64,000 nucleotides of DNA, taken from assembly GCA_030841085.1 (NCBI GenBank), contig JAVEDP010000021.1, positions 124,001 to 188,000 of the forward strand, given 5' to 3'. Under the pieces are notes generated by a model, which was given only the letters and a program-made list of their open reading frames with translations, was not told the origin of the DNA and ran no database searches. Below, piece after piece: positions 12,880 to 62,800 of this stretch; position 1 is the first letter of the stretch, and every line of letters begins with the position of its first letter. Position numbers and translations under genes: made by a program. The DNA is from Pyrinomonadaceae bacterium. GTDB lineage: Bacteria > Acidobacteriota > Blastocatellia > Pyrinomonadales > Pyrinomonadaceae.

Positions 12880-12955
12880 GTAAAGCAAACTGTTAGTTTG
12901 CGGTGGATAGTTAGCACTCACTTGGCAACCAACGCAAACTAACAGTTTGCTTTAC
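12880..12955. repeat. stop-codon element, copy A (76 bp, terminal inverted repeats)
   Basis: Ends in GTAAAGC on both strands; each 23-base terminal repeat holds the self-pairing core GCAAACTGTTAGTTTGC (stem GCAAACT/AGTTTGC, loop GTT). Interior about 30 bases. Lies in the gap between the MBL-hydrolase stop and the purM start, both minus strand. This is the only full copy whose ends do not form part of a coding sequence in my preferred annotation. Confidence 0.9.
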
Positions 12956-12987
12956 CATTTACGATTTACTATTTACGATTTACCGCT
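12956..12987. repeat. 7-base tandem repeat (ATTTACG unit)
   Basis: ATTTACG, ATTTACT, ATTTACG, ATTTACC follow one another directly after copy A of the stop-codon element and run into the stop codon of the MBL-hydrolase gene (TAA at 12969-12971 on the minus strand). A degenerate partner, TTAGTAAATGGTAGA, lies on the other side of copy A at about 12860-12873, so the element seems to be framed by an inverted pair of these repeats. Confidence 0.75.
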
Positions 12988-14123
12988 TTGGGAGGTGGTC
13001 CAAAGTCGCCATAGGCGATGAATCCGGAACGCGTGGAATCATCCTTCTGCCCGGCTCGCCCGGCCCACACGTCAACCGCGCCTTCTTTCGCTGTCTTGAT
13101 TACATAATCCTTCTCTTTGCCGCGTGTCGTAATCGTTATCTCGCCTTGCAGGTCAGTCCGGAACAACTTCGCGTTCGCCGCTTTCAATCTATCCAGCACC
13201 GCCTGCGAAGGGTGGCCATATCGATTCCACTCGCCGCAGGAGACGACAGCCACTTCCGGCTTCACGCGCTCGACGAAGTCCTGCGACGTTGCGTACTTTG
13301 AACCGTGATGACTGACTTTTAAGATCGTCGAGCGCAGGTTCATGTCCTTCGTCAGCATGCGGTGCTCGGTTTGCTCTTCAGCGTCGCCGGTCAAGAGCAT
13401 GGAGAAGTCGCCATAGTCCAGCCTGATGACAATCGAATTCGCATTTGGCAAGTTACCGCCAGTTTTCATCTGGTCTTTCGTAAACAATGGTTCGGTCGGC
13501 GCGAGCACCATCAGCCGAGCGCCGCCACCAATATCATATTTCGTGCCGGCTTGAGTTTTCTCATAGCTCGCACCGCTTTGCGTCACCGCATCCTTGTAGT
13601 CATCGTAAAATTTTGTGATTGAACTCGACTTGGCAGCCGGCTTTTTATCTTGGGCGGATTTCTTGTCTTGAGCAGGTTTCTTTTGAGCAACTTTCGGACC
13701 CTGTTTCACGGCCAGTGATTCGGGAACGTCGGGTTCAGTGCCGTTATCGATTACGCGCAAGACCTTGGTGCCTTTAATTACTTCGTCCGCGCCGCCAATG
13801 TGATCGGGATGCGGATGCGTGGCAATAAAGAAGTCGAGCTGCTGCACGTTGTAACGCTTCAACGCTTCGAGGACGACTTTGCCTTTGTTGGTGTCGCCGG
13901 CGTCAATCAGCACAGACGTCCCGGTAGGCGAGATAATCAGAATTGAATCGCCTTCAACTGGTCCAACATCGAGAATGTGTACCTGAAGTTCTTTGCCGGA
14001 TGGCGTAGGCGGTTTCGTTTTCCACCAGGGCAGGACATATTTCCAGCCGACGTAACCGGCCGGAATCAGCAGCAGAACCAAAACCGCGCTCGCGCATCCA
14101 CAGCCTTTTGTTGCTCGACTCAC
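12969..14123 (-). CDS. membrane-anchored ComEC/Rec2-type metallo-beta-lactamase-fold hydrolase
   Basis: 384 residues. One N-terminal membrane span (about 11-30, ASAVLVLLLIPAGYVGW) then a MBL domain: QVHILDVGPVEGDSILI, LIDAGD, the metal motif THPHPDHIGG near residue 106 and VSHHGSKYATS near 270. This is the soluble domain found at the C-terminus of ComEC, here as a separate anchored enzyme with a lysine- and serine-rich insert (about 130-165, KKPAQDKKSAQDKKPAAKSS). It probably faces the periplasm and acts on nucleic acids or another phosphodiester; substrate unproven. Its stop lies in a 7-base tandem repeat. Confidence 0.85.
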   Translation of the reverse strand: MSRATKGCGCASAVLVLLLIPAGYVGWKYVLPWWKTKPPTPSGKELQVHILDVGPVEGDSILIISPTGTSVLIDAGDTNKGKVVLEALKRYNVQQLDFFIATHPHPDHIGGADEVIKGTKVLRVIDNGTEPDVPESLAVKQGPKVAQKKPAQDKKSAQDKKPAAKSSSITKFYDDYKDAVTQSGASYEKTQAGTKYDIGGGARLMVLAPTEPLFTKDQMKTGGNLPNANSIVIRLDYGDFSMLLTGDAEEQTEHRMLTKDMNLRSTILKVSHHGSKYATSQDFVERVKPEVAVVSCGEWNRYGHPSQAVLDRLKAANAKLFRTDLQGEITITTRGKEKDYVIKTAKEGAVDVWAGRAGQKDDSTRSGFIAYGDFGPPPKAVNRK

Positions 14124-17253: not shown

Positions 17254-17263
17254 AATTCGTTCG

Positions 17264-17401
17264 TTGTCAGTGGTCAGTTGGCAGTTGTATCCGCAGGCCA
17301 AACTTGAATGATATTGACAATCCTTGCTTTAGCTGACAACTAAACACCGATCAACAAACAACGAAAAACTAACAACGGACAACTGACGACGGACAACCGA
17401 C
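17264..17401. repeat. inverted pair of 7-base tandem repeats (GTCAGTG / ACAACGG units)
   Basis: Left block (about 17265-17287): TGTCAGT, GGTCAGT, TGGCAGT. Right block (about 17371-17400): AACAACG, GACAACT, GACGACG, GACAACC. The blocks are roughly inverse complements. They fill the gap between the hypothetical gene and the dehydrogenase gene, whose ATG lies 7 bases after the right block. Confidence 0.75.
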
Positions 17402-18361: not shown

Positions 18362-18737
18362 GTTTTAAAACGGAAGAGGCGCAGAAAGAGATTTGCCATT
18401 TTCCATTTGCCATTTTCCATTTGCCATTTTGCTATTGTCCATTTTCCATTTGCTATTTTCCATTAGACTCACGCCGCTGAGTTGGAACGCGCGCGGTTTG
18501 AGAAGAGGCACTGGTTTCAATGAAAAATGGTAAATGAGAAATGGCAAATGGAAAATCTTGGTTCGCTGCCTTCTGCCTCCTGCCTTCTGCCCTCTTCCGA
18601 CTCGCTTCGCTCGTTTCTTTGCTCCCTGATTCCCGTTTAGCTATACTTCACGCCTTCCCTTCTGCGGCCTGACGATTACCGGGTTTCTGGCGTTCCAAGA
18701 GGTCGCGACATGCAGTTTTTCTTGAAGGCGGTGCTTT
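18362..18737. repeat. 376-base gap filled with 7-base tandem repeats
   Basis: 18393-18463 holds TTGCCAT and TTTCCAT in alternation, about ten units. 18519-18556 holds the inverse (ATGGTAAATGAGAAATGGCAAATGGAAAAT). 18570-18597 holds a different 7-base unit, TGCCTTC, four times. CTCGCTTCGCTCG (18601-18613) is a small palindrome. The last 100 bases before HtrA carry AAGGCGG at about 18725 as its ribosome site. No gene seen. Confidence 0.8.
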
Positions 18738-20336: not shown

Positions 20337-20341
20337 GAACG

Positions 20342-20407
20342 TCTCAAGTTTCAAGTTTCAGGTTCCAAGTTTTCCAACCTGAAACTTGGAACTTGGAACT
20401 TGAAACT
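20342..20407. repeat. inverted pair of 7-base repeats (CAAGTTT / GAAACTT)
   Basis: CAAGTTT, CAAGTTT, CAGGTTC, CAAGTTT on the left; GAAACTT, GGAACTT, GGAACTT, GAAACT on the right, separated by a few bases. The whole can fold into one hairpin of about 28 bp. It lies 6 bases after the HtrA stop and ends 5 bases before the aldehyde dehydrogenase ATG, so it also covers that gene's ribosome site region. Confidence 0.85.
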
Positions 20408-20411
20408 GATT

Positions 20412-21983
20412 ATGGCCCAGGCAAAAAAAGCTCTCGCAAAAAATAATTCCCGGCAAGCATCACCGCGCCTGGTCCGCTCGTCCGTTAAGACCTACGACAA
20501 TTACATCGGCGGCAAGTGGGTACCGAGCGAATCAGGCGAGCACTTCGAAAACATCAACCCCGCGGATACCAACGACCTCATCGGGCGTTTCGCTTTGTCG
20601 ACCAGTAAAGATGTGAACACCGCGGTGAATGCCGCGCGTGAAGCTTTCGATGGTTGGCGCAATACGCCCGCTCCGCGGCGCGCGGAAATTCTTTTTCGGC
20701 TCGGTGAAATTCTGCTGGGAAACAAACCGCGCTTCACTGCCGACATGACGCGCGAGATGGGCAAGGTTTTGAAAGAAGCGGGCGGCGACGTGCAGGAAGC
20801 AATCGACTGCACTTATTACACGGCCGGTGAAGGCCGGCGTCTGCACGGCTTTACTACGCCTGCGGAGATGCCCGACAAGTTTGCGATGTGCGTACGGCAG
20901 CCGGTGGGACTCTGCGGGCTAATCACGCCGTGGAATTTTCCGATGGCGATTCCTTCATGGAAACTGATTCCAGCGCTGGTCTGTGGCAACACAGTGGTGC
21001 TCAAACCAGCCGAAGATACGCCGCTCTCAACTTACAACCTGGTCGAGGCTTGCGAACAGGCAGGCATTCCGCCGGGAGTCGTGAACCTCGTTACCGGCTA
21101 TGGTGAAAACGCGGGAGCGGCCATTACGAATCACTCGGCGTTGCGGCTTATTTCGTTTACTGGTTCAACTGAAACCGGGCGAACGGTTGCGTCCGCCTGT
21201 GCCGAACGCAATGCAATCTGTTCGCTTGAGATGGGCGGCAAGAACGTCATCATCGTCATGGAAGATGCCGACATCGACCTCGCGATCGAAGGCGCGGTCT
21301 GGGGCGCGTTTGGCACTTCCGGACAACGCTGCACCGCGTCGTCGCGGCTCGTGGTCCATAAAAAGATCTACAAGCAGTTCTGCAAAAAACTAGTCGAGCA
21401 TGCCAGGCGTTTGCGGATCGGCAACGGCGCAGATGCGAAAACTGACATGGGGCCGGTAATCAACGCCGACGCAGTCAAGAAAATCATGGGTTACATCGAT
21501 ATCGGTCAAAAGGAAGACGGCGCCAAGCTGGCGTGCGGCGGCAAACGGCTCACGCGCGGCGAGTATGCGCGCGGGTTCTTCATCGAACCGACAGTCTTTA
21601 CCGATGTCGCACCTGACATGCGGATTGCACAAGAGGAAATCTTCGGCCCGGTTACCACAGTCATTCCAACCAAATCGCTTGACGAGGCTGTGGAGATTGC
21701 CAACGGTGTTCGTTATGGCCTGTCCGCCGCGATTTATACTACCGACGTCAATCGCGCCTTTCGCGCCATGAACGACATGTACACCGGAATATTTTATGTA
21801 AACGCTTCGACGATTGGCGCTGAAGTGCACCTGCCGTTCGGCGGCACCAAGGCCACCGGTAACGGCCACCGCGAAGCGGGCACGCAGGTGCTGGACATTT
21901 TTTCCGAATGGAAATCCATCTATGTCGACTACAGCGGCAAACTGCAACGCGCGCAAATCGACATGATTGACGGCATGGGATAA
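20412..21983 (+). CDS. NAD(P)-dependent aldehyde dehydrogenase
   Basis: 523 residues from ATG 20412; an upstream TTG at 20400 lies inside the repeat. The catalytic Glu is in LEMGGKNV near 275 and the nucleophilic Cys in [10 protein letters not shown] near 305. [17 protein letters not shown] and [10 protein letters not shown] are also typical. The sequence style resembles alpha-ketoglutaric-semialdehyde and related dehydrogenases ([29 protein letters not shown]). Residues 1-30 are a basic extra tail. The alanine dehydrogenase gene follows on the same strand, suggesting amino-acid or amine breakdown, but the aldehyde is not identified. Confidence 0.93.
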
Positions 21984-21984
21984 G

Positions 21985-22114
21985 AAGTCAGAGGTCGGAG
22001 ATCAGAAGTCAGAGGTCAGAAAATCCGGCTCCGAATTCCTGACTTCTGATCTCTGACCTCCGATCTCTGATCTCTGATCCCTGACTTCTGACTTCTGACT
22101 TCTGATCTCTGACC
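21985..22114. repeat. inverted pair of 7-base tandem repeats (GARGTCA / CTGACTT)
   Basis: Left block 21986-22020: GAAGTCA, GAGGTCG, GAGATCA, GAAGTCA, GAGGTCA. Right block about 22039-22114: CTGACTT, CTGATCT, CTGACCT, CCGATCT and so on, about eleven units. The first five right units are the inverse of the left block, so a hairpin of 30 or more bp is possible. It separates the two dehydrogenase genes. Confidence 0.9.
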
Positions 22115-22130
22115 CTGGAGGACTCTGCAC

Positions 22131-25658: not shown

Positions 25659-26009
25659 TCGTAACTGACTCTGTTTCCTATGTTCTGCAAGACCCGTTCC
25701 GCTAAGAGATGTTCAGCACAACAGATTTACAGCACTACCAAAATTTCCTGTGTTGCCCAATCTGGATTGTCATGTCCACTCCTTCTCGGAACTCTGAGAC
25801 CGAGTAACGCGAAGCGATCTCATTAGCACCGTGGCTTAAGCCCGGTGGTTAAGCTTTACAAAATGATCCCTTAAACCGTTTCCAACGGTTTCTCTTGATC
25901 CTTCTTGCCAACAAAACCGTTAGAAACGGTTCCTCGTCAATTCTAATTTGCTATCACCGGGCTGAAGCCGCGGTGCTAATGAGATCGCTTCGCGTACCCG
26001 GCCGGTCGG
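25659..26009. repeat. 351-base gap with a nested inverted repeat
   Basis: Outer arms: AGCGATCTCATTAGCACCG (about 25813-25831) and its inverse CGGTGCTAATGAGATCGCT (25971-25989), together with GTGGCTTAAGCCCGGTG and CACCGGGCTGAAGCCGC inside them. Between the arms two AACCGTTTCCAACGGTT-like palindromes face each other (25874-25891 and about 25915-25933). No gene seen. The right arm lies 20 bases from the asnB stop. Confidence 0.8.
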
Positions 26010-27947
26010 TTAATCCATAAACTCTCGCTGCCAAAGCTCGAGCGTCAATAACTGAAACACCTGAAGATTGTAATCCTCACGACCGGAAAGGTTCGCATCA
26101 ATGATGCGGCGCACTTCGGCTGGTCTAAATAACCCGCGGCGGTTGATTGTTTCTTCTGACAAAAGATCGTCAACCATTGGACGCAGCGGACCGCGCAACC
26201 AGGAACGAATCGGCGCCCCAAAGCCTGCTTTCTTTCGCCACACAACATCGTGCGGCAAGAATTTTTCCAGCGCGCGCTTGAGAATATATTTCCGTTTGAA
26301 CCCGCGCAGTTTGAGTTCCGGCGGCATGCGCGCAGTAAGCTCAATCATCTTGCGGTTGAGGAACGGCACGCGCACCTCCAGATTTGCCGCCATCGAAGTT
26401 TTGTCGGTAGTTATTAAATTCAGGCAAGGCAGAAAAGTTTTTAGATCGACGTAAAGCAAACGGTTCAGCGGCGCGGTGTTTTTCACGCGCGCAAAGTAAC
26501 GACGATGCGCGGCATAAGCATCGAATTCGCGCGTCGAGGCACACATATCGTCCGAATAAAGCCGCTGCTTCATGTCATCAGTAAAGTAAGTTCCGTATCC
26601 CAGGTATCGTTCTTCAAAATCCAGACCCGCACTGCGCGCAAACTTTTTAGCGTTACGCAATGGCGCCGTCAAACGACCCGGCAGTCCACCCGGCAACGTG
26701 CGTTCAATCGTCTTCATCAGCGGCCGGCGCAACATGCCGGGCACCGGATCAAATGCGCCGGCAATCTTCATGGCGAGCTGGCGTGGATAGCCCGCAAAAA
26801 CTTCATCACCGCCCATCCCCGACAGCATCACGCGCAAGGTTTCGCGCGCCGCCTGCGAAACCAGGTAGCTCGGGATGGCCATGTCTATCGCCGGCTCGTC
26901 CATGTGATAGACCAGTTTCGGCAGCAACTCGGCGACCGCCGGGTGCAGCATGATCTCGTGATAACCGGTGTCCAGATGCTTGTTAACGCGGCGCGCCCAT
27001 TCGACGTCGTCCGGGATGATGTCGTAGCGCAGGTCTTCGGATTCGATGCCGACCGTATAGGTGGAAACTCTACGCCCGTTGCTGTGACGCTTCATCATCG
27101 CGACGATTCCTGACGAATCGATCCCACCTGAAAGAAACGATCCGAGCGGCACGTCGGCAACCATCTCCATGTTGACTACCTCGTCCAGCGTTTCAAGCAC
27201 GCGGTCCTGCCACCACGCTTCGCTGCGTCCTTCGTCAACTTCGTCAAACGAGACGTCCCACCATTCGTCGATCTTGATTTGGTCCTGCTGAAATGTAAGC
27301 GCGTGGGCCGGCGGTAATGTCTTGACTCCGCGAAACAAGGTGTTCGGATCGGGCGCCCACAGGAAGGTCAGAAACTGGTGCAGCGCTTCGGGGTCAAGCG
27401 CGCGCTCCACCAAACCGGTCGCCAATATCGCTTTAACTTCCGACGCGAAAATTAACAAACCCGGTTTCGCACCGGCTGCAGGTTCATAGAAATAATAAAG
27501 CGGCTTGATGCCGACGTGATCGCGCGCGACTGTCAGCTTGCGTTCGTGATTGTCCCAAACCGCGAAGTGGAACATGCCGTTAAGACGCGGCAGACATTGC
27601 TTGCCCCACTCGGCAAATGCAGTCAGGAGAACTTCGGTGTCGGTCTCAGTTTGAAAGACATGGCCCTTGCCTTTGAGTTCGTTACGCAACTCGCGATAGT
27701 TATAGATCTCCCCGCCATAGGTGAGCACGTAACGGCCATCAGCAGAAAGCATTGGCTGGTGGCCGGCTGAGCTGGTATCGATGATTGCGAGACGGCGATG
27801 ACCGAGACACGCGCGCCGGCCCGTGCTATCGATTGCTTCCGAAGTCCAAACGCCTTCATCGTCGCGACCGCGATGCTCAATCGTTCTGAGCATCGCCGCA
27901 ACGCGTTGTTCCGGCTCGAGACTGATTAATCCGGCAATGCCGCACAT
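26010..27947 (-). CDS. asnB: AsnB-type glutamine amidotransferase (first copy)
   Basis: 645 residues from ATG 27947; an upstream start at 27974 would bury the N-terminal nucleophile. C2 in MCGIAGLISLE is the glutaminase Cys, RRLAIIDTSSAGHQPM follows, and the synthetase part has the PP-loop LSGGIDSSGIVAMM near 260. Class II asparagine synthetase fold. As two copies of the same length lie in one polysaccharide locus, I think they amidate sugar acids or similar groups rather than free aspartate, as known for some O-antigen clusters. This is inference; true asparagine synthesis is not excluded. Confidence 0.9.
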   Translation of the reverse strand: MCGIAGLISLEPEQRVAAMLRTIEHRGRDDEGVWTSEAIDSTGRRACLGHRRLAIIDTSSAGHQPMLSADGRYVLTYGGEIYNYRELRNELKGKGHVFQTETDTEVLLTAFAEWGKQCLPRLNGMFHFAVWDNHERKLTVARDHVGIKPLYYFYEPAAGAKPGLLIFASEVKAILATGLVERALDPEALHQFLTFLWAPDPNTLFRGVKTLPPAHALTFQQDQIKIDEWWDVSFDEVDEGRSEAWWQDRVLETLDEVVNMEMVADVPLGSFLSGGIDSSGIVAMMKRHSNGRRVSTYTVGIESEDLRYDIIPDDVEWARRVNKHLDTGYHEIMLHPAVAELLPKLVYHMDEPAIDMAIPSYLVSQAARETLRVMLSGMGGDEVFAGYPRQLAMKIAGAFDPVPGMLRRPLMKTIERTLPGGLPGRLTAPLRNAKKFARSAGLDFEERYLGYGTYFTDDMKQRLYSDDMCASTREFDAYAAHRRYFARVKNTAPLNRLLYVDLKTFLPCLNLITTDKTSMAANLEVRVPFLNRKMIELTARMPPELKLRGFKRKYILKRALEKFLPHDVVWRKKAGFGAPIRSWLRGPLRPMVDDLLSEETINRRGLFRPAEVRRIIDANLSGREDYNLQVFQLLTLELWQREFMD

Positions 27948-27954
27948 AAGAAAA

Positions 27955-28075
27955 GTCCAAAGTCCAATGTCCAATGTCCAATGTCCAAAACGCGATTTCC
28001 GGGGGCGGTAGTCCAGTAACTAGCTGGACTCTGAACTTTGGACTTTGGACTTTGGACTTTGGACTTTTTCGGGTT
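27955..28075. repeat. inverted pair of 7-base repeats (GTCCAAT / TTTGGAC)
   Basis: Left block 27957-27993: GTCCAAA, GTCCAAT three times, GTCCAAA. Right block 28036-28070: TTTGGAC four times and more. The left block lies just upstream of the asnB start; the right block is inside the last codons of the next gene, whose tail (EKVQSPKSKVQSSESS) is its translation. Confidence 0.9.
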
Positions 28076-37886: not shown

Positions 37887-39203
37887 ATGAACACCGCAAT
37901 CAAAATCAATCAGGTCAGCAAGCGTTACCGGATTGGGGGACTGCATCCGGGATACATGACTTTCCGTGAAATGCTCGGCGGCCTGGTAACGGCGCCGTTC
38001 AGAAAACTCAAAAGCGGTAACGGTTCGCAAACGTTATGGGCGTTGAGTGACATCAACCTCGAGATTGGACAGGGTGAACTGGTAGGGATCATTGGGCACA
38101 ACGGCGCGGGCAAATCGACATTGCTGAAGATACTTTCGCGCGTGACAAAACCAACGACCGGCGAGGTCGAACTATTCGGGCGCATCGGCAGTCTGCTGGA
38201 AGTTGGCACGGGTTTTCATCCTGATCTCACTGGTCGCGAAAATATTTTTCTGAGCGGTGCAATCCTGGGAATGCGACGCAAGGAAATTGAGCGCAAGTTT
38301 GACGAGATCGTGGCGTTTTCGGAATTGGAAAAGTTCATTGAAACTTCGGTCAAGTGGTACTCCTCGGGCATGTACGTGCGTTTGGCGTTTTCGGTGGCGG
38401 CGCATCTCGAGCCGGAGATCCTGATGATGGACGAAGTTTTGGCGGTGGGAGACGCGGCTTTCCAACACAAGTGTCTCGATAAGATGAACGCCATACGTCA
38501 ACAGGGCCGCACGATTCTGTTCGTCTCGCATGACATGGCGGCGATAACGCGATTGTGCCGGCGGGTAGTGTTACTCGAAAATGGCGTGGTTAGCTTTGAC
38601 GGCGAGGCGCGTGAGGTGGTCAAACGTTACCTCAGTTCCAGTTTGAAAACGGGCGCACTCAAGGAATGGACCAACCAACATGATGCTCCCGGTGATCAGG
38701 TGGCACGGTTGAGGAGAGTGCGCGTTCGCACGAGCGATGGCGTCACAACCGCGGTTGTAGATATCCGGCAACCATTCGGCATTGAAATCGCTTACGATGT
38801 TTTGGCTGAGGGCCATGCGCTCGTGCCGGTCGTCGAATTTTATAACGAAGAAGGCACCGAACTTTTCAGCACCCATGACACGTCGTCGAACTGGCGCCGC
38901 CAGCCACGGCCCCCCGGAACCTACACCAGCACCGTTCAAATTCCCGGCAACCTGCTCGCTGAAGGAAGTTTGGTGGGCCATGTCTCAATCATGTCGCACT
39001 TTCCCGCGACCGTGCTTCACGCTCAGGAGCGCAACGCTGTTGCGTTTCAAGTTGTTGACGGCCCGGCGGGAGATTCCGCGCGCGGTGATTACATTGGCCC
39101 AATGCCCGGCGTCATTCGGCCGCTGCTGCAATGGACCACTGAAACGAACGAACTAAGTCCAAAGTCCAATGTCCAAAGTCCAACGTCCGCGGGCAACTCT
39201 TGA
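37887..39203 (+). CDS. ABC polysaccharide exporter ATPase with C-terminal glycan-binding domain (Wzt type)
   Basis: 438 residues from ATG 37887; the frame is open further upstream, but only inside the permease gene. Walker A GHNGAGKST near 73, signature YSSGMYVRLAFS near 158, Walker B EILMMDEVLAVGD near 178, switch His in LFVSHD. Residues about 265-420 form a beta-sandwich like the Wzt C-terminal domain that recognises the non-reducing end of the finished chain, which suggests export of a capped polymer (the methyltransferase could set the cap). The last 15 residues (SPKSNVQSPTSAGNS) are written by a 7-base repeat. Confidence 0.93.
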   Translation: MNTAIKINQVSKRYRIGGLHPGYMTFREMLGGLVTAPFRKLKSGNGSQTLWALSDINLEIGQGELVGIIGHNGAGKSTLLKILSRVTKPTTGEVELFGRIGSLLEVGTGFHPDLTGRENIFLSGAILGMRRKEIERKFDEIVAFSELEKFIETSVKWYSSGMYVRLAFSVAAHLEPEILMMDEVLAVGDAAFQHKCLDKMNAIRQQGRTILFVSHDMAAITRLCRRVVLLENGVVSFDGEAREVVKRYLSSSLKTGALKEWTNQHDAPGDQVARLRRVRVRTSDGVTTAVVDIRQPFGIEIAYDVLAEGHALVPVVEFYNEEGTELFSTHDTSSNWRRQPRPPGTYTSTVQIPGNLLAEGSLVGHVSIMSHFPATVLHAQERNAVAFQVVDGPAGDSARGDYIGPMPGVIRPLLQWTTETNELSPKSNVQSPTSAGNS

Positions 39204-40462: not shown

Positions 40463-40542
40463 AGCAAACTGTTAGTTTGCGGCGGTGGGTTGACACTGAC
40501 TTGAGCGGTAACCACACACCGCAAACTAACAGTTTGCTTTAC
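40459..40542. repeat. stop-codon element, copy D (84 bp), shared by two convergent genes
   Basis: The cleanest copy. GTAAAGC at 40459 and its inverse GCTTTAC ending at 40542; terminal repeats of 24 bases are perfect. Bases 2-4 of the left end are the TAA of the glycosyltransferase (40460-40462); bases 2-4 of the right end are the TAA of the second asnB (40539-40541, minus strand). Both genes therefore end exactly at the element. Confidence 0.93.
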
Positions 40543-42476
40543 GCTTCGATCCAACGCTCGTACCAGAGGCTGACATTTAAGAGCGCCCAGAGATGAAAAC
40601 TCCAGTCGTGTTTTCCCTGCCGGTGTTCGTCAATCAAGCGCGCGACAAACGTGTAGTCAAACAAATTTCGACTGCGCATTGAAGAGTTCATGATCATCGC
40701 GCCCAGCGCTTCACCGCCATCACCGCGAAACCATTCGCGTATTGGCGCGCCAAAGCCACGCTTGGGCCGGTACAACAAATCGGCCGGTAAAACTTTTTCC
40801 AATGCGCGCTTCAGAATATATTTCCCGTTCGCACCCCTGATTTTTAAATCCACCGGCAGACCCATCGCGTATTCAACCAGATGATGATCGAGAAACGGCA
40901 CGCGCGCCTCAACCGACGTTGCCATCGTCATTTTGTCTACTCGCATCAGCAGTAACTCAGGCAAACGCACCTTGAGCTCAAGGTACGACATGCGCGCGGC
41001 AAAATCCGCCTCGGGCCGCGCTTTGGCAATATGCTGGAGGTGATTCTCGACTGCTTGGTATGACGAAAGGCCGTCCACGCGCTGGCTTAATTCGCTCGAT
41101 AGAACCCGGCGCTTAAACTCTTCATCAAACACGATTGCGCCGCCCCAAAACAACGCTTCATCGGCGCCTAACCGCCGCACCAACTCTATCGCCGTGCGTT
41201 TATTGAATGAGGTTTCCAACAGCGGCTTTGCCAGCGTCGTTAACGAATGACGGAGCGAAACGGGAAGCTGTTCCGCACGGCGCCAAAACTGTTCGTAAAT
41301 TCGTACGTACTTTCTAAACCAGTCGTAACCGGCAAATATTTCGTCGGCGCCTTCGCCCACCTGCACAACGATTGTTCCACTTTCGCGCGCGAGTTTTGAG
41401 ACATAATAAAGCGGCACGCAAACCGGATCTGCCAGCGGCTCGTCCTGATGAAAAATGAGTTCCGGAAGAAATTGCTGCATGTCGCGCTGGCCTATGATTA
41501 CTTCGTGATGATCCGTTGCGAAGCGTTCCGCGACAGCTCGCGCACTGTCGAGCTCGTTGAGTTCGTCGTTGTCTTCGAAGCCTACGGTGTAAGTGCGCAC
41601 GGGTTGAGACATCAGTTCCGACATCAACGCCACGTTCGCTGAAGAATCCACGCCGCCGGAAAGAAACACGCCAAAGGGCACATCCGACATCATGCGTTTG
41701 CTAATCGAGTCTCGCAGCAGGCGCAGGATTTCTTCGCTGTGTTCCGCTTCGCTGCGACCGGCGGAGTTTTCCGCAGCCTGTTCGGGAGGCAGCGCGTCCC
41801 AATACTGTTTTAGTTCGACGGATCCATCGCGCTTAATGATCAGGAGATGTCCGGCGGGCAATTTTTGAATGTCGCGAAAGAGCGTTTGCGGCGCCGGCGT
41901 GGTCAGGAAAGTCAGATAATGATAGAGCGATTCTTCATCAATCTCGGGTGTTACCGCCGGGTGGCGCAGGATGGACTTGATTTCCGACGCGAAGATAAAA
42001 CGCCCGCCCCGAGTGTGGAAGTAAAGCGGCTTGACACCGACGCGATCGCGCGCCAATACAAGCTGCTCGCGCCGGGCATCCCACAAGGCAATGGCGTAGT
42101 CGCCTTCAAGTTCATTTACGAAATCCAGGCCACGCTCTTCGTAAAGATGCAGGATGGTTTCCGAGTCAGTGTGAGAAGAATAATGATGGCCACGTTGCTC
42201 GAGGCCCTCGCGCAGACGCGCGTGGTTGTAAATTTCGCCGTTGAAAACCAGCCAGACATCTTTCGTACAGCCATGCATTGGCTGGTTGCCGGCCCGCGAA
42301 AGATCGATGATTGAGAGGCGGCGAAAACCAAGGCCGCCGCGCCCTTCGTCAAAAATCAGCGAGCCCTTATCATCCGGCCCGCGATGCGTCAGCTCGTCGC
42401 GCATACGCTCGACGAGCGGCAGTTCAACCCGCCCTTCGCTGGCGCCGTATTCCCAGATGCCGCAGATGCCACACAT
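40539..42476 (-). CDS. asnB: AsnB-type glutamine amidotransferase (second copy)
   Basis: 645 residues. C2 in MCGICGIWEYG is the glutaminase nucleophile, LTHRGPDDKG and RRLSIIDLSRAGNQPM follow, and the PP-loop is VFLSGGVDSSANVAL near 258. The C-terminal ILKRALEKVLPADLLYRPKR block parallels the first copy, but the two are clearly diverged. It is transcribed with the heparinase-type gene. See the first copy for the argument that such enzymes in glycan loci may amidate uronic acids. Stop codon from element copy D. Confidence 0.9.
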   Translation of the reverse strand: MCGICGIWEYGASEGRVELPLVERMRDELTHRGPDDKGSLIFDEGRGGLGFRRLSIIDLSRAGNQPMHGCTKDVWLVFNGEIYNHARLREGLEQRGHHYSSHTDSETILHLYEERGLDFVNELEGDYAIALWDARREQLVLARDRVGVKPLYFHTRGGRFIFASEIKSILRHPAVTPEIDEESLYHYLTFLTTPAPQTLFRDIQKLPAGHLLIIKRDGSVELKQYWDALPPEQAAENSAGRSEAEHSEEILRLLRDSISKRMMSDVPFGVFLSGGVDSSANVALMSELMSQPVRTYTVGFEDNDELNELDSARAVAERFATDHHEVIIGQRDMQQFLPELIFHQDEPLADPVCVPLYYVSKLARESGTIVVQVGEGADEIFAGYDWFRKYVRIYEQFWRRAEQLPVSLRHSLTTLAKPLLETSFNKRTAIELVRRLGADEALFWGGAIVFDEEFKRRVLSSELSQRVDGLSSYQAVENHLQHIAKARPEADFAARMSYLELKVRLPELLLMRVDKMTMATSVEARVPFLDHHLVEYAMGLPVDLKIRGANGKYILKRALEKVLPADLLYRPKRGFGAPIREWFRGDGGEALGAMIMNSSMRSRNLFDYTFVARLIDEHRQGKHDWSFHLWALLNVSLWYERWIEA

Positions 42477-42482
42477 AAAATA

Positions 42483-42597
42483 GAGGTCAGAGGTCAGAAG
42501 TCAGACGTCAGGAGTCAGGAGTCAGAATACAAGTAGTTCAGAGTCCAACCTTCAGGTTGCTCTTGCGTTGTTAAGAAGCAAGCTAAAGCTTGTACTC
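42483..42597. repeat. 7-base tandem repeat (GAGGTCA unit) and two palindromes
   Basis: 42484-42527: GAGGTCA, GAGGTCA, GAAGTCA, GACGTCA, GGAGTCA, GGAGTCA, the same unit as at 21985-22114 but without an inverted partner. Then CAACCTTCAGGTTG (42547-42560) and GCAAGCTAAAGCTTGT (42579-42594). They fill the gap between the heparinase-type stop and asnB start. Confidence 0.85.
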
Positions 42598-42612
42598 TCA
42601 ACTTCTTGAGCT

Positions 42613-44789: not shown

Positions 44790-44836
44790 GCGGCGTCAAG
44801 CCGCCGTGCTGCAAAGCGGCGTCAAGCCGCCGCAGT
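44790..44836. repeat. palindromic repeat of the GGCGTCAAGCCGCC family
   Basis: GCGGCGTCAAGCCGCCGTGC and then GGCGTCAAGCCGCCGC in direct order between wecB and the heparinase-type gene. The same 30-base wording stands at 54765-54795 and inverted at 54672-54706. Confidence 0.85.
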
Positions 44837-44868
44837 CCAAAAGTTTCCGCGGGCTCAAAGCGAACACG

Positions 44869-52952: not shown

Positions 52953-53039
52953 GCACAGACTTAAGTCTGTGCTTTCGTTAGTGGCATAGACTTCAGTCTG
53001 TGGTTTCGTTAGGTGCCACAGACTAAAGTCTATGCCACT
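52953..53039. repeat. three CACAGACTTAAGTCTGTG-family palindromes
   Basis: GCACAGACTTAAGTCTGTGC (52953-52972) is perfect; GTGGCATAGACTTCAGTCTG (from 52981) and TGCCACAGACTAAAGTCTAT (from 53014) are variants, the third inverted relative to the second. The same family occurs at 23290-23346. They lie between the polymerase start and the ribE stop. Confidence 0.88.
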
Positions 53040-53690: not shown

Positions 53691-53696
53691 TTCTTT

Positions 53697-53731
53697 GAAT
53701 TTCGGATTGCGAATTGCGAATTTCGGATTTC
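53697..53731. repeat. 7-base tandem repeat (GAATTGC unit) upstream of ribE
   Basis: GAATTTC, GGATTGC, GAATTGC, GAATTTC, GGATTTC in a row, between the 39-residue ORF and the ribE GTG; they cover most of the ribE leader, so could affect its translation. No inverted partner seen. Confidence 0.85.
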
Positions 53732-53851
53732 TCAGATTATCCGTCTTACCATCAAGACGATTAGTAAAATGAAAAGTCCCACCAATGCGGGTGCAAATGA
53801 GAACAGCATCATCCACAGCGGTTCGCGCTTAAATGAAAACTCGATAAACAT
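53732..53851 (-). CDS. probable 39-residue single-span membrane protein upstream of ribE
   Basis: ATG 53851 to TGA 53732. The product is MFIEFSFKREPLWMMLFSFA followed by PALVGLFILLIVLMVRRII: a polar start, one long span of about 22 residues and a basic end (VRRII), which predicts an inside C-terminus. Too short for usual gene callers. It ends 41 bases before the ribE start on the same strand. The topology is too regular for chance, I think, but no ribosome site is strong (TGATTC upstream). Confidence 0.5.
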   Translation of the reverse strand: MFIEFSFKREPLWMMLFSFAPALVGLFILLIVLMVRRII

Positions 53852-54660: not shown

Positions 54661-54812
54661 TTGCGGCGCTTGGCGCCGCTTTGTAGCACGGCGGCTTGAC
54701 GCCGCCTCAACGTTCCTAAGAAGTAGCGTGTTTTCTATTACGAACGACTTTGCTAACCAAAAACCGGCGTCAAGCCGCCGTGCTGCAAAGCGGCGTCAAC
54801 CCGCCGCACTCC
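54661..54812. repeat. inverted repeat of the GGCGTCAAGCCGCC family
   Basis: Left arm 54669-54706 (GGCGCCGCTTTGTAGCACGG, then CGGCTTGACGCCG), right arm about 54764-54801 (its inverse, one or two mismatches), spacer about 57 bases. A single direct-order copy lies at 44790. It fills the gap between hemW and cmk, both minus strand. Confidence 0.88.
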
Positions 54813-54816
54813 AAAT

Positions 54817-59848: not shown

Positions 59849-62800
59849 TGGTTTCTCAACGCTCATTGTTCCTTATCTTGCTGCTCTCTGCCTTTTGCCT
59901 GCTGCCTTCTGCCTTCTCTCAAAACGAAGTACCAGAACCCGCTGGTCAGCCGTCGCCATCTCCGTCACCTTCTCCATCGCCGCTGCCCTCGCCTTCACCG
60001 ACACCACTAACCGGTCTGCATCAATGGGGCGCGGTAACGCTGTTTCACGGCTTGCCATCGGATCGAGTGCGCGCGATCGCGCAAGGCCTGGACGGCATGA
60101 TGTGGTTCGGAACCGAAGCGGGTCTCGCCAGGTTCGATGGCCGCCGCATGCAAACGATCACCGACCCGCAAATGCCGCAAGGGCGAGTGCTATCGCTCCT
60201 GACGGATGCGAGCGGCGCGCTTTGGGTGGGAACTGACAGCGGCGCGGCGCGCATCTTGAACGGCAGAGTCGATGCAGTGAAAGAGGTTCAGGGCCAGACC
60301 ATCAACGCGATCATCGAACCGGAAGCCGGACGCCTGTTAATGGCCAGCGAACAAGGCATGGTCTATGAATGTCGCACGAACAGCGGGACATTCCAGGCCG
60401 GGGTCCCCGGCGGGGCAGCCCCGCTGGGGTGGAAAATAAAACAACTTCTGGAGAAGCCGCTTGAAAGTGCGGACAGAGATAAGCCCGGCGCCTTGCCGTT
60501 GACGAGTCTCACCGTTGCGCACGAAAAGTTGTTTGCTGGTTCAATGAGCCGTGGTTTGCTGGCGATCGAAAACAACTCGGCGACAGAGATGCAGGCGCGG
60601 CGGCCGGCTTTTTTTGTGCGGGCGCTAGCCACCGACGCGCGTGGCCAGTTGTGGGTCGGAACCAAAAGCCGGAAAGATCAGCAGGCATTGCATGCGGCGG
60701 ATGGCTTTTCAGAAATCACCAGCGCCGACGCGGTTACTGGAACGGTGGTGGCATTGCGTCCAGGCCGCGCGGACGACATGTGGGTTGGAACCGATGGTCG
60801 CGGCGTATTCTATTTTCCCGCTTCAAGGAAAAGTGTGAACCTCACTTTTGATGGCACTGAAGGCGGGCTGCGTTCGGATCACATTTTTTCGATCTTTGTC
60901 GACCGTGAAGATGTCGTTTGGTTTGGCACCGATCGCGGCGTTAGCCGTTACGATCCCAACTCGCCGCGAGTTGAAAATATCGGCGACAGTGCGGAAAGCA
61001 ATTTCGTGCGCACGCTGTATCAAGCGTCGAGCGGTCACGTTTTAGCCGGCACAAACCGCGGCTTGTTTGTTTACGATCCGAAAGCCGCGCGCTGGGATTC
61101 AATCAGCGACCTCTCGCGCAACATCATTTACTGCATCGCCGAAGACGATGCGGGCAGATTGCTAATTGGCTCGGCGGCGGGATTCTTCGTCGGCCCAAAA
61201 CTTACCCGCGACCTGCAACTAGAAACGCAAACTTTCGCGCGCCTCGAAACAAGTTCCGGCGCGGCTGATGCGACGGGCAGCATTCGCGCGATAGCGCGCT
61301 TTCGCGGCACTACTTACCTCGCCAGTTATGGCCGCGGTCTCGAACGCTTTGCAGACAATCGCGTGACGAGCGTCTGGCCCAACGACAGCAACAATAGTCG
61401 TGAAATCATCAGTCTCTTTGCCGACGGCGACCTAAGACTATTGCTTGGAACCAGCAAAGACGGCGTACTGAGTTTCGACGGCACACAGGCCAGCAGCGCG
61501 CCCGAGTTTGCAAAACTCAACAACAGCACCGTGCGCTCGATAACTGAAACCGCCGCGCAGACACTTTGGTTTGCTACCAGTCGCGGCGTTTTTCTTTGTC
61601 GCGCCGGCAACGATTGTGTGGCCGCGGCGGCTGGCTATGAAGCGCGTTTCCTGCAGCGCGCGCCAACCGAAAAAGACAGCGCCGTGTGGTGCGCGACGAC
61701 GGCAAGCGGCCTTCTGAAAATCGCGCTTGACGACAAGCTCAATGCGCCGCTTGTTTCGCAACTCGATGCCGAACAGGGCTTGCCTTCGCAGAATGCATTC
61801 GCTGTGCTGCCGCTGACGGGAGCGGATGGACGCGCAACGTTATTGGTCGGCACCAGCCGCGGAATTGCGCGTTTCGCGCCGGATACGTTCGCGCCGACGG
61901 TGTATGCCGCGCGCGTCATCAGCAAACGGGTCCACTCGCCGGCCGAGTTGCAGTCGGGCATTTATCTCGAATATCCGCAGAACGGTTTGTTGCTTGATGT
62001 TGCAGCAATCAGCAGCCGCACCTTTCCAGAACAGTTTCAATATGCGTTCACATTGACGAATGCAAAAGGCGAACTGGTCAAACAAAAAGTTTCGCACGAA
62101 TCGCAATTCGCGATGGAGAGTCTGGCACCCGGCAAATATCGCGTGACCGGGCGCGCTTTCAGCCGCGACCTTGTCTCATCCGAACCGCTGTCGTTTGAGT
62201 TGACGATTGCGAAGGCGCCGTTCCCCTGGACTTCAACGGCGCTCGCGATCCTTTTGACGCTGGCGTTGTTGGCCTTGTTCTGGGCCATCCAGGAGCGCCG
62301 CCGCATTGCCAGAACAAGCGCGGCATTGGTCAACGCGAATCGCGAGCTGGCCGATGCGCGTTTGAATCTCGCCAACGAAGCGGAGCGCGAACGACGCCGA
62401 ATTGCTCGTGACCTTCACGATCAAACGCTGGCTGACTTGCGACATTTGATGTTGATGAGCGATCAGTTAATCGCCGATGGGCGGCCAACTCCAGGCGCCG
62501 ATACGTTGCGCAGCGAGATAGAATCCATCTCGCAGGAAGTGCGCCGCATTTGCGAAGACCTTAGTCCGTCGGTGCTACAAAATGTTGGTTTTGCGGCGGC
62601 GCTTGAGTTTGCTTTATCACATGCGGTGCAGGACGCGCCGGCGGATCGAAAGTTTGAATATGAATTTGTCTGCGACGATGAGCTTGAAGAGCGGGTGCGA
62701 CTGGCGCCGAATGTGCAGATGCAAATTTATCGAATCGTGCAGGAGGCCTTGAACAACATTTGTCGTCACTCACGCGCAACCCATGTAAAGATGCAAGTCG

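Follow-up and report, generated by a model that had tools for sequence, protein, structure and literature searches.

In a 4.69-Mb genome of 43 contigs from a Pyrinomonadaceae bacterium (G000), the gap between an aldehyde dehydrogenase gene and an alanine dehydrogenase gene is filled by two mirror-image arrays of a seven-base unit (21983-22116). Array coordinates refer to the + strand of the window, the 64-kb stretch of DNA analysed here (C19:124001-188000). The 5' arm (21983..22020) begins at the aldehyde dehydrogenase stop codon and is made of GARRTCR units (GAAGTCA, GAGGTCG and GAGATCA); the 3' arm (22039..22116) consists of the inverse units YGAYYTC (TGACTTC, TGATCTC and TGACCTC) and ends approximately 15 bp ahead of the alanine dehydrogenase GTG. 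Folded as RNA, the two arms together score z = -6.3 relative to shuffles. Short intergenic arrays with a seven-base unit, often in mirror-image pairs able to form hairpins, number in the hundreds in this genome. Heptamer repeats in bacteria have been on record for decades with no mechanism to explain them.

Seven-base arrays in the window and the genome

Period-seven tandem blocks had been described from this stretch at eleven or more loci, and every block named was recovered at its position when Tandem Repeats Finder was applied to the window. As recovered, the named blocks lie at 12951-12984, 17335-17397, 18391-18464, 18566-18595, 20344-20407, 21983-22114, 27952-28067, 39155-39188, 42482-42527, 53697-53731 and 59887-59917. 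Inverted pairs are present at five sites (17259/17335, 18387-18465/18519, 20337/20372, 21983/22039 and 27948/28022). At the third of these, AAGTTTC units (RGTTTCR in phase) at 20337..20373 are followed by the inverse unit GAAACTT/GGAACTT at 20372..20412, and the hairpin has an RNA fold z of -7.5 relative to shuffles. At the fifth, AAAGTCC/AATGTCC units occupy 27948..27995, 5' of a minus-strand asparagine synthase gene, with the inverse unit GGACTTT at 28022..28072 (z = -9.2 for the hairpin). The remaining two combine GTCAGTT (17259..17287) with AACTAAC/GACAACT/GACAACG (17335..17401), and ATTTGCC/ATTTTCC (18387..18465) with inverse units resembling GGAAAAT/GGCAAAT (18519..18556); this last pair is adjoined by a single TGCCTTC array (18563..18602). 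Other single arrays are AAAGTCC at 39148..39192, GAAGTCA at 42477..42531, immediately 5' of another asparagine synthase gene, encoded on the minus strand, GAATTTC (TTTCGAA) at 53693..53735 and TGCCTTC at 59886..59920, the last two with the same unit in the related genome G011. An array of TTTACGA/TTTACCA (12948..12988) has a degenerate partner arm, which is present in G011. The two asparagine synthase paralogues (26010-27974 and 40539-42476) each have a heptamer array directly at the 5' end, and the sequence flanking the second array (42530-42612) matches the region of the first site in G011, in inverse orientation.

A shift-match scan, in which 21-base windows with at least 18 matches at a given shift were counted as repeat segments, found 12 segments at period 7 in the 64 kb, eight at 14 and two at 21, with zero at every remaining period between 2 and 13 and next to nothing in order-3 Markov shuffles. 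The genome-wide peak at seven that had been proposed as a check is likewise present, with 104 period-7 segments in 864 kb of G000 as against no more than five for each of the other periods up to 13, a ceiling that includes one masked N run present in all. For a single unit, GAAGTCAGARGTCAGA, matches with no more than two mismatches numbered 162 + 143 across the genome, compared with 19 + 16 for the reversed control.

Inverted pairing, arm order and gene edges

Neighbouring arrays, defined as those less than 300 bp apart, are inverses of one another at a unit identity of at least 6/7 in 33 of 46 cases, where random draws of the same genome's units lead to an expectation of approximately 2.4. 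The proposal that blocks are paired beyond controls is thus borne out, although the statement that most of them have an inverse is too strong for the window, where this applies to about half of the sites; no inverse partner lies within 300 bp of the arrays at 12948, 18563, 39148, 42477, 53693 and 59886. Judged by eye, pairs built from the same unit have unrelated spacers, or loops, one word being common to about ten sites without common loops, so that whole pairs do not seem to have been copied around the genome; MITE-like copying of whole pairs was rejected on this ground.

At least 20 unit families exist in this one genome. Among 38 pairs from 20 families in approximately 1 Mb of it, a fixed arm order is kept by each family with more than one pair (7/7, 4/4, 4/4, 3/3, 3/3, 2/2 and 2/2), and the order in relatives and in other phyla is that of G000, with GAAGTCA the first arm in 11/11 pairs outside it. 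When 25 words differing pairwise by at least two letters were compared, the 5'-arm strand contained GT without AC in 16 and AC without GT in two (p = 0.0013), AG against CT stood at 13:1, and G exceeded C in 16 words, with the reverse in three. One common consensus word was rejected, since rotation-aligned units are only about 1 sd above shuffled letters in information; beyond the GT polarity, the families have no shared consensus. Any mechanism has to account for this uniformity of arm order across families and phyla, which is a quantitative regularity.

The median distance from an array to a predicted gene edge is 3 bp, with 99 of 133 lying within 20 bp, these distances being approximate because the edges were called by a crude ORF caller. 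Arrays occur in 72 co-directional, nine divergent and seven convergent gaps (88 in total), compared with 426, 112 and 85 respectively among all gaps of at least 30 bp, and are thus under-represented in the latter two classes. This deficit leaves room for either a transcript-level effect or promoter avoidance. Single arrays have the same outward polarity from genes in 26 of the 31 cases that could be oriented.

Inherited sites, changing words and parallels elsewhere

Over approximately 160 kb, C19 is for the most part collinear with C130, a contig of G011, at an identity that is mostly 80-90%; identity to G014 is mostly 65-75%. Of 81 orthologous gaps between G000 and G011, ten hold arrays in both genomes, four in G000 only, two in G011 only and 65 in neither (Fisher 3e-8); the corresponding numbers for G014 are four, one, zero and 22 (p = 2.8e-4). 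At window position 20337, an RGTTTCR-like unit is found in G000, G014 and G005, and RGTGTCR in both arms in G011, with the predicted hairpin kept in all four species. Replacement by a word from another family was rejected at this site, as the outgroups G014 and G005 point to a single word drifting in the two arms. C19:117168 has AAAGTCC-type units in both arms in G000 and G014, and TGTCAGT/AGTTGTC in G011. The direction of word change is provided by outgroups at two sites. Elsewhere, AAAGTCC at 27948 in G000 corresponds to GAGTTAT/CTCATCA in G011; the word at 21983 is common to G000, G011 and G005, with AGATGCT/ATCTAAC in G014; and sites orthologous to 42477 contain no array in G011 and an AAAGTCC array in G014. 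Array lengths also differ between species. Sites thus persist from one species to another, while a change of unit can affect the two arms in concert.

Array load, as counted for two unit families, ranges within the genus from 0-1 matches (G003, G004, G010 and G015) to over 100 (G000 and G014). In G015, practically no heptamer array was found in the 260 kb sampled; two orthologous sites there have shorter intergenic gaps, and the gap orthologous to 20337 is minimal, a few bases long and without an array. The genus provides dozens of inherited sites, together with genomes both with and without arrays, and through it slippage, template switching and RNA selection are separately testable.

Exact TGACTTC arrays are found in Cyanobacteria, Nitrospirae, Deltaproteobacteria, Bacteroidetes, Verrucomicrobia and Acidobacteria, and three TGACTTC units followed by TGA form an exact array in many phyla, the reversed control having few or no occurrences in ten diverse genomes. 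At loci in other phyla chosen by their heptamer array, the count for period 7 is 291, the next non-multiples being periods 8 and 9 with 24 and 16. The link drawn in the preliminary description to cyanobacterial heptamer repeats was therefore apt, and its suggestion of one process common to different units gains support from the uniform arm order and from the turnover of units at inherited sites. None of the window's named units is, presumably, identical to the STRR1-3 heptamers of Calothrix and Anabaena. The dominant word in G029, a genome of the same class, differs from that of G000: CTTCAGT arrays, the reversed word, gave more than 800 matches there, as against 33 for TGACTTC.

The novelty implied there was overstated. 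Inverted heptamer pairs have been published for Xanthomonas (PMC4692102) and Geobacter (PMC2700814), and heptamer stems in which the unit is replaced for Nostoc trnL introns (PMC4476775). An excess of heptanucleotide repeats in many bacteria, with slippage as the proposed cause, was described by Mrazek (2007), as reported in PMC4679880 and PMC4692102. By these reports, the long simple sequence repeats concerned are intergenic with a dominant unit length of 7, and the period-7 arrays here are likewise above chance and mostly intergenic, but differ from the repeats so described in their inverted pairs, fixed arm order, many unit families and turnover at orthologous sites. The inverted pairs in Xanthomonas are formed by GGGAATC (Rehm 2015, PMC4692102), one G-quadruplex unit in contrast to the at least 20 non-quadruplex units here; convergent pairs in which the G-rich strand points outward from genes are found in both, whereas the GGG tracts of a quadruplex-capable unit are absent from AAAGTCC, AAGTTTC and GAAGTCA. 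In the P6b stem of the Nostoc trnL intron, the 7-nt repeats TDNGATT or NNTGAGT belong to classes that replace each other at the site, and both words resemble 5'-arm units here (GCCGATT and TGAGTGC), although that system is a single locus within a group I intron rather than dozens of intergenic loci in 1 Mb (PMC4476775). The class 3 elements of Geobacter metallireducens comprise five tandem heptamers, MTYCTGA, a consensus that covers the window's TGACTTC, at sites mostly in pairs; they were interpreted as binding sites of a regulator (IHF/HU), without data on their evolution (PMC2700814). The TAACTGA arrays of Beggiatoaceae (PMC4679880) and the cyanobacterial STRR share the period of seven and the intergenic location, but are mostly direct, unpaired and of a single unit; where TAACTGA lies upstream of starts, its ACT is oriented as a 3' arm would have it. 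What is added here is an arm-order rule that holds across multiple families, the genome-wide persistence of sites with concerted change of both arms, and the lack of an RNA-pairing signal.

Candidate origins of the arrays

Selection at the RNA level should leave more G-U than A-C mismatches in stems read in the transcript sense. In 74 pairs between co-directional genes, these numbered 69 and 81 respectively (p = 0.37), compared with 30 and 17 in terminator-like hairpins of the same contigs, a control small enough that the test has moderate power. The lack of a G-U excess argues against selection on an RNA hairpin, and no Rfam family matched the window at gathering score. RNA pairing is apparently not what is conserved, although the hairpins may still affect mRNA, and it seems rather unlikely that the pairs are functional intercistronic stems that would end, process (through RNase III) or protect transcripts, with pairing selected and the word free. 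The strong predicted stems (z = -6.3, -7.5 and -9.2), their retention with different letters in up to four species and the enrichment of arrays between co-directional genes would suit such a role; against it, in addition to the mismatch counts, stand the presence of one arm only at about half of the window sites, the fold of 18386-18500 (5' arm only), which is worse than that of shuffles, the z of -1.7 at 42475-42612, and the near absence of arrays from the same-genus G015, with only a few bases in its gap orthologous to 20337. The wider caution is that covarying intergenic stems need not be functional RNAs.

The evidence instead favours a strand-symmetric DNA process, which would involve slippage within arms and template switching between them. 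We regard slippage in 7-nt steps combined with arm-to-arm template switching at inherited intergenic hairpins as the most likely explanation, with moderate confidence, because repeats are at period 7 only, pairing is in excess, loops are unrelated, sites persist, arms change in concert and G-U pairs are not enriched. Within an arm, where the period is fixed, slippage of the polymerase by one seven-base unit would both expand and homogenise the array. Between arms, the folded-back strand could serve as a template (template switching, or quasipalindrome correction), so that a new unit variant would be copied, in reverse complement, into the other arm, as the concerted change of the two arms suggests; template switching has been documented to make and maintain stems and to homogenise the arms of inverted repeats (PMC8794818, PMC8604942). 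The site at the gene edge is inherited, but the seven-letter word it holds drifts or gives way to another, and the pattern would be explicable without any present function. Unit variants are mirrored in register between the two arms weakly at best (mean z 0.37, Wilcoxon 0.006; combined permutation p 0.49), which counts against simple hairpin copying, as that predicts more. Inversion of the spacer would also be expected from template switching, and two informative loops are both in the original orientation; the same two loops led to the rejection of loop inversion by recombination between arms. The preference for a unit length of 7 is real and outside the reach of slippage and template switching, and the arm order (G-rich, with the AGT/GT unit in the 5' arm) and the sharing of words among sites are likewise real and not covered by them.

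Alternatively, a protein that binds DNA or RNA might recognise the arrays as tandem sites, a role that has been proposed for Geobacter (IHF/HU; PMC2700814) and Beggiatoaceae (S1/Csp/Csr; PMC4679880). Orientation is constant for each unit and outward from genes, single arrays included, and the 5' arm is G-rich; however, at least 20 unit families coexist in one genome, words differ at orthologous sites and nothing beyond the GT polarity is held in common, making this explanation doubtful. A dedicated DNA-copying or end-extending activity that writes repeats outward from gene edges in 7-nt steps, G-rich/AGT strand first, is a distinctly improbable conjecture; were it true, the arrays could be likened to head-to-head telomere repeats, and the same activity, with drifting words, might lie behind the heptamer arrays of Cyanobacteria, Xanthomonas, Geobacter and Acidobacteria.

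Three candidate genetic factors were considered. Loss of the hairpin nuclease SbcCD, which might let inverted arrays survive, is refuted as a general cause and has the slightest probability of the explanations considered, although it could be a modifier. Within the genus, SbcD is found only in the array-free G015 (191 bits), with none above cut-off in G000 and the array-rich members, but array-free G003, G004 and G010 also lack it, while SbcD is present in two cyanobacteria and in G026 and G029, all of which bear arrays; as a permissive factor, SbcCD loss fits G015 alone. Reverse transcriptase was rejected as the cause, having no match in array-bearing G005, G017, G022 and G026 and no covariation with arrays. 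Spread of array pairs as mobile elements by a transposase, such as a REP-associated Y1 transposase (RAYT), is largely refuted and very improbable. Among members of the genus, RAYT number does roughly track array load, and G010 and G015 are without either, yet ordinary REP inverted repeats are the usual neighbours of the RAYT genes of G000, G011, G014, G017 and G031, none of the 20 genes inspected has a heptamer array starting within approximately 900 bp, and loops are not common to pairs of one family. The heptamer pairs do not flank a cognate Y1 transposase as REP/BIME elements do, and RAYT was rejected as their mobiliser because its flanks carry REPs of their own and no heptamers.

G000 has 15 Y1_Tnp matches, and most of those inspected have different flanking inverted repeats; at C15:370600-372700, a RAYT gene lies between the REP-like repeats GAGCGCCGAAGGTGCGACAG and GCCACGCCCGTTAGGGCGTGG. 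A dispersed element of approximately 240 bp in the window (25763-26003), with inverted ends and cores AAACCGTTTCCAACGGTTT / AAACCGTTAGAAACGGTT, recurs at several other positions of G000 and G011 with 83-91% matches. Words similar to these cores flank RAYT genes in relatives, AAACCGTTTCAACGGTTT in G011 (L269) and CAACCGTTTCAACGGTTT in G014 (L273), which gives the element the appearance of a REP pair with a cognate transposase there. Two further repeats were observed in the window: a palindromic 31-bp tandem repeat with core GCACAGACTTAAGTCTGTGC that follows the end of one gene and precedes the next (52953-53035), and two copies of a 26-bp tandem repeat, GCGGCGTCAAGCCGCCGCACTCCAAA, at 44790-44841 and 54761-54815, apparently a separate repeat family.
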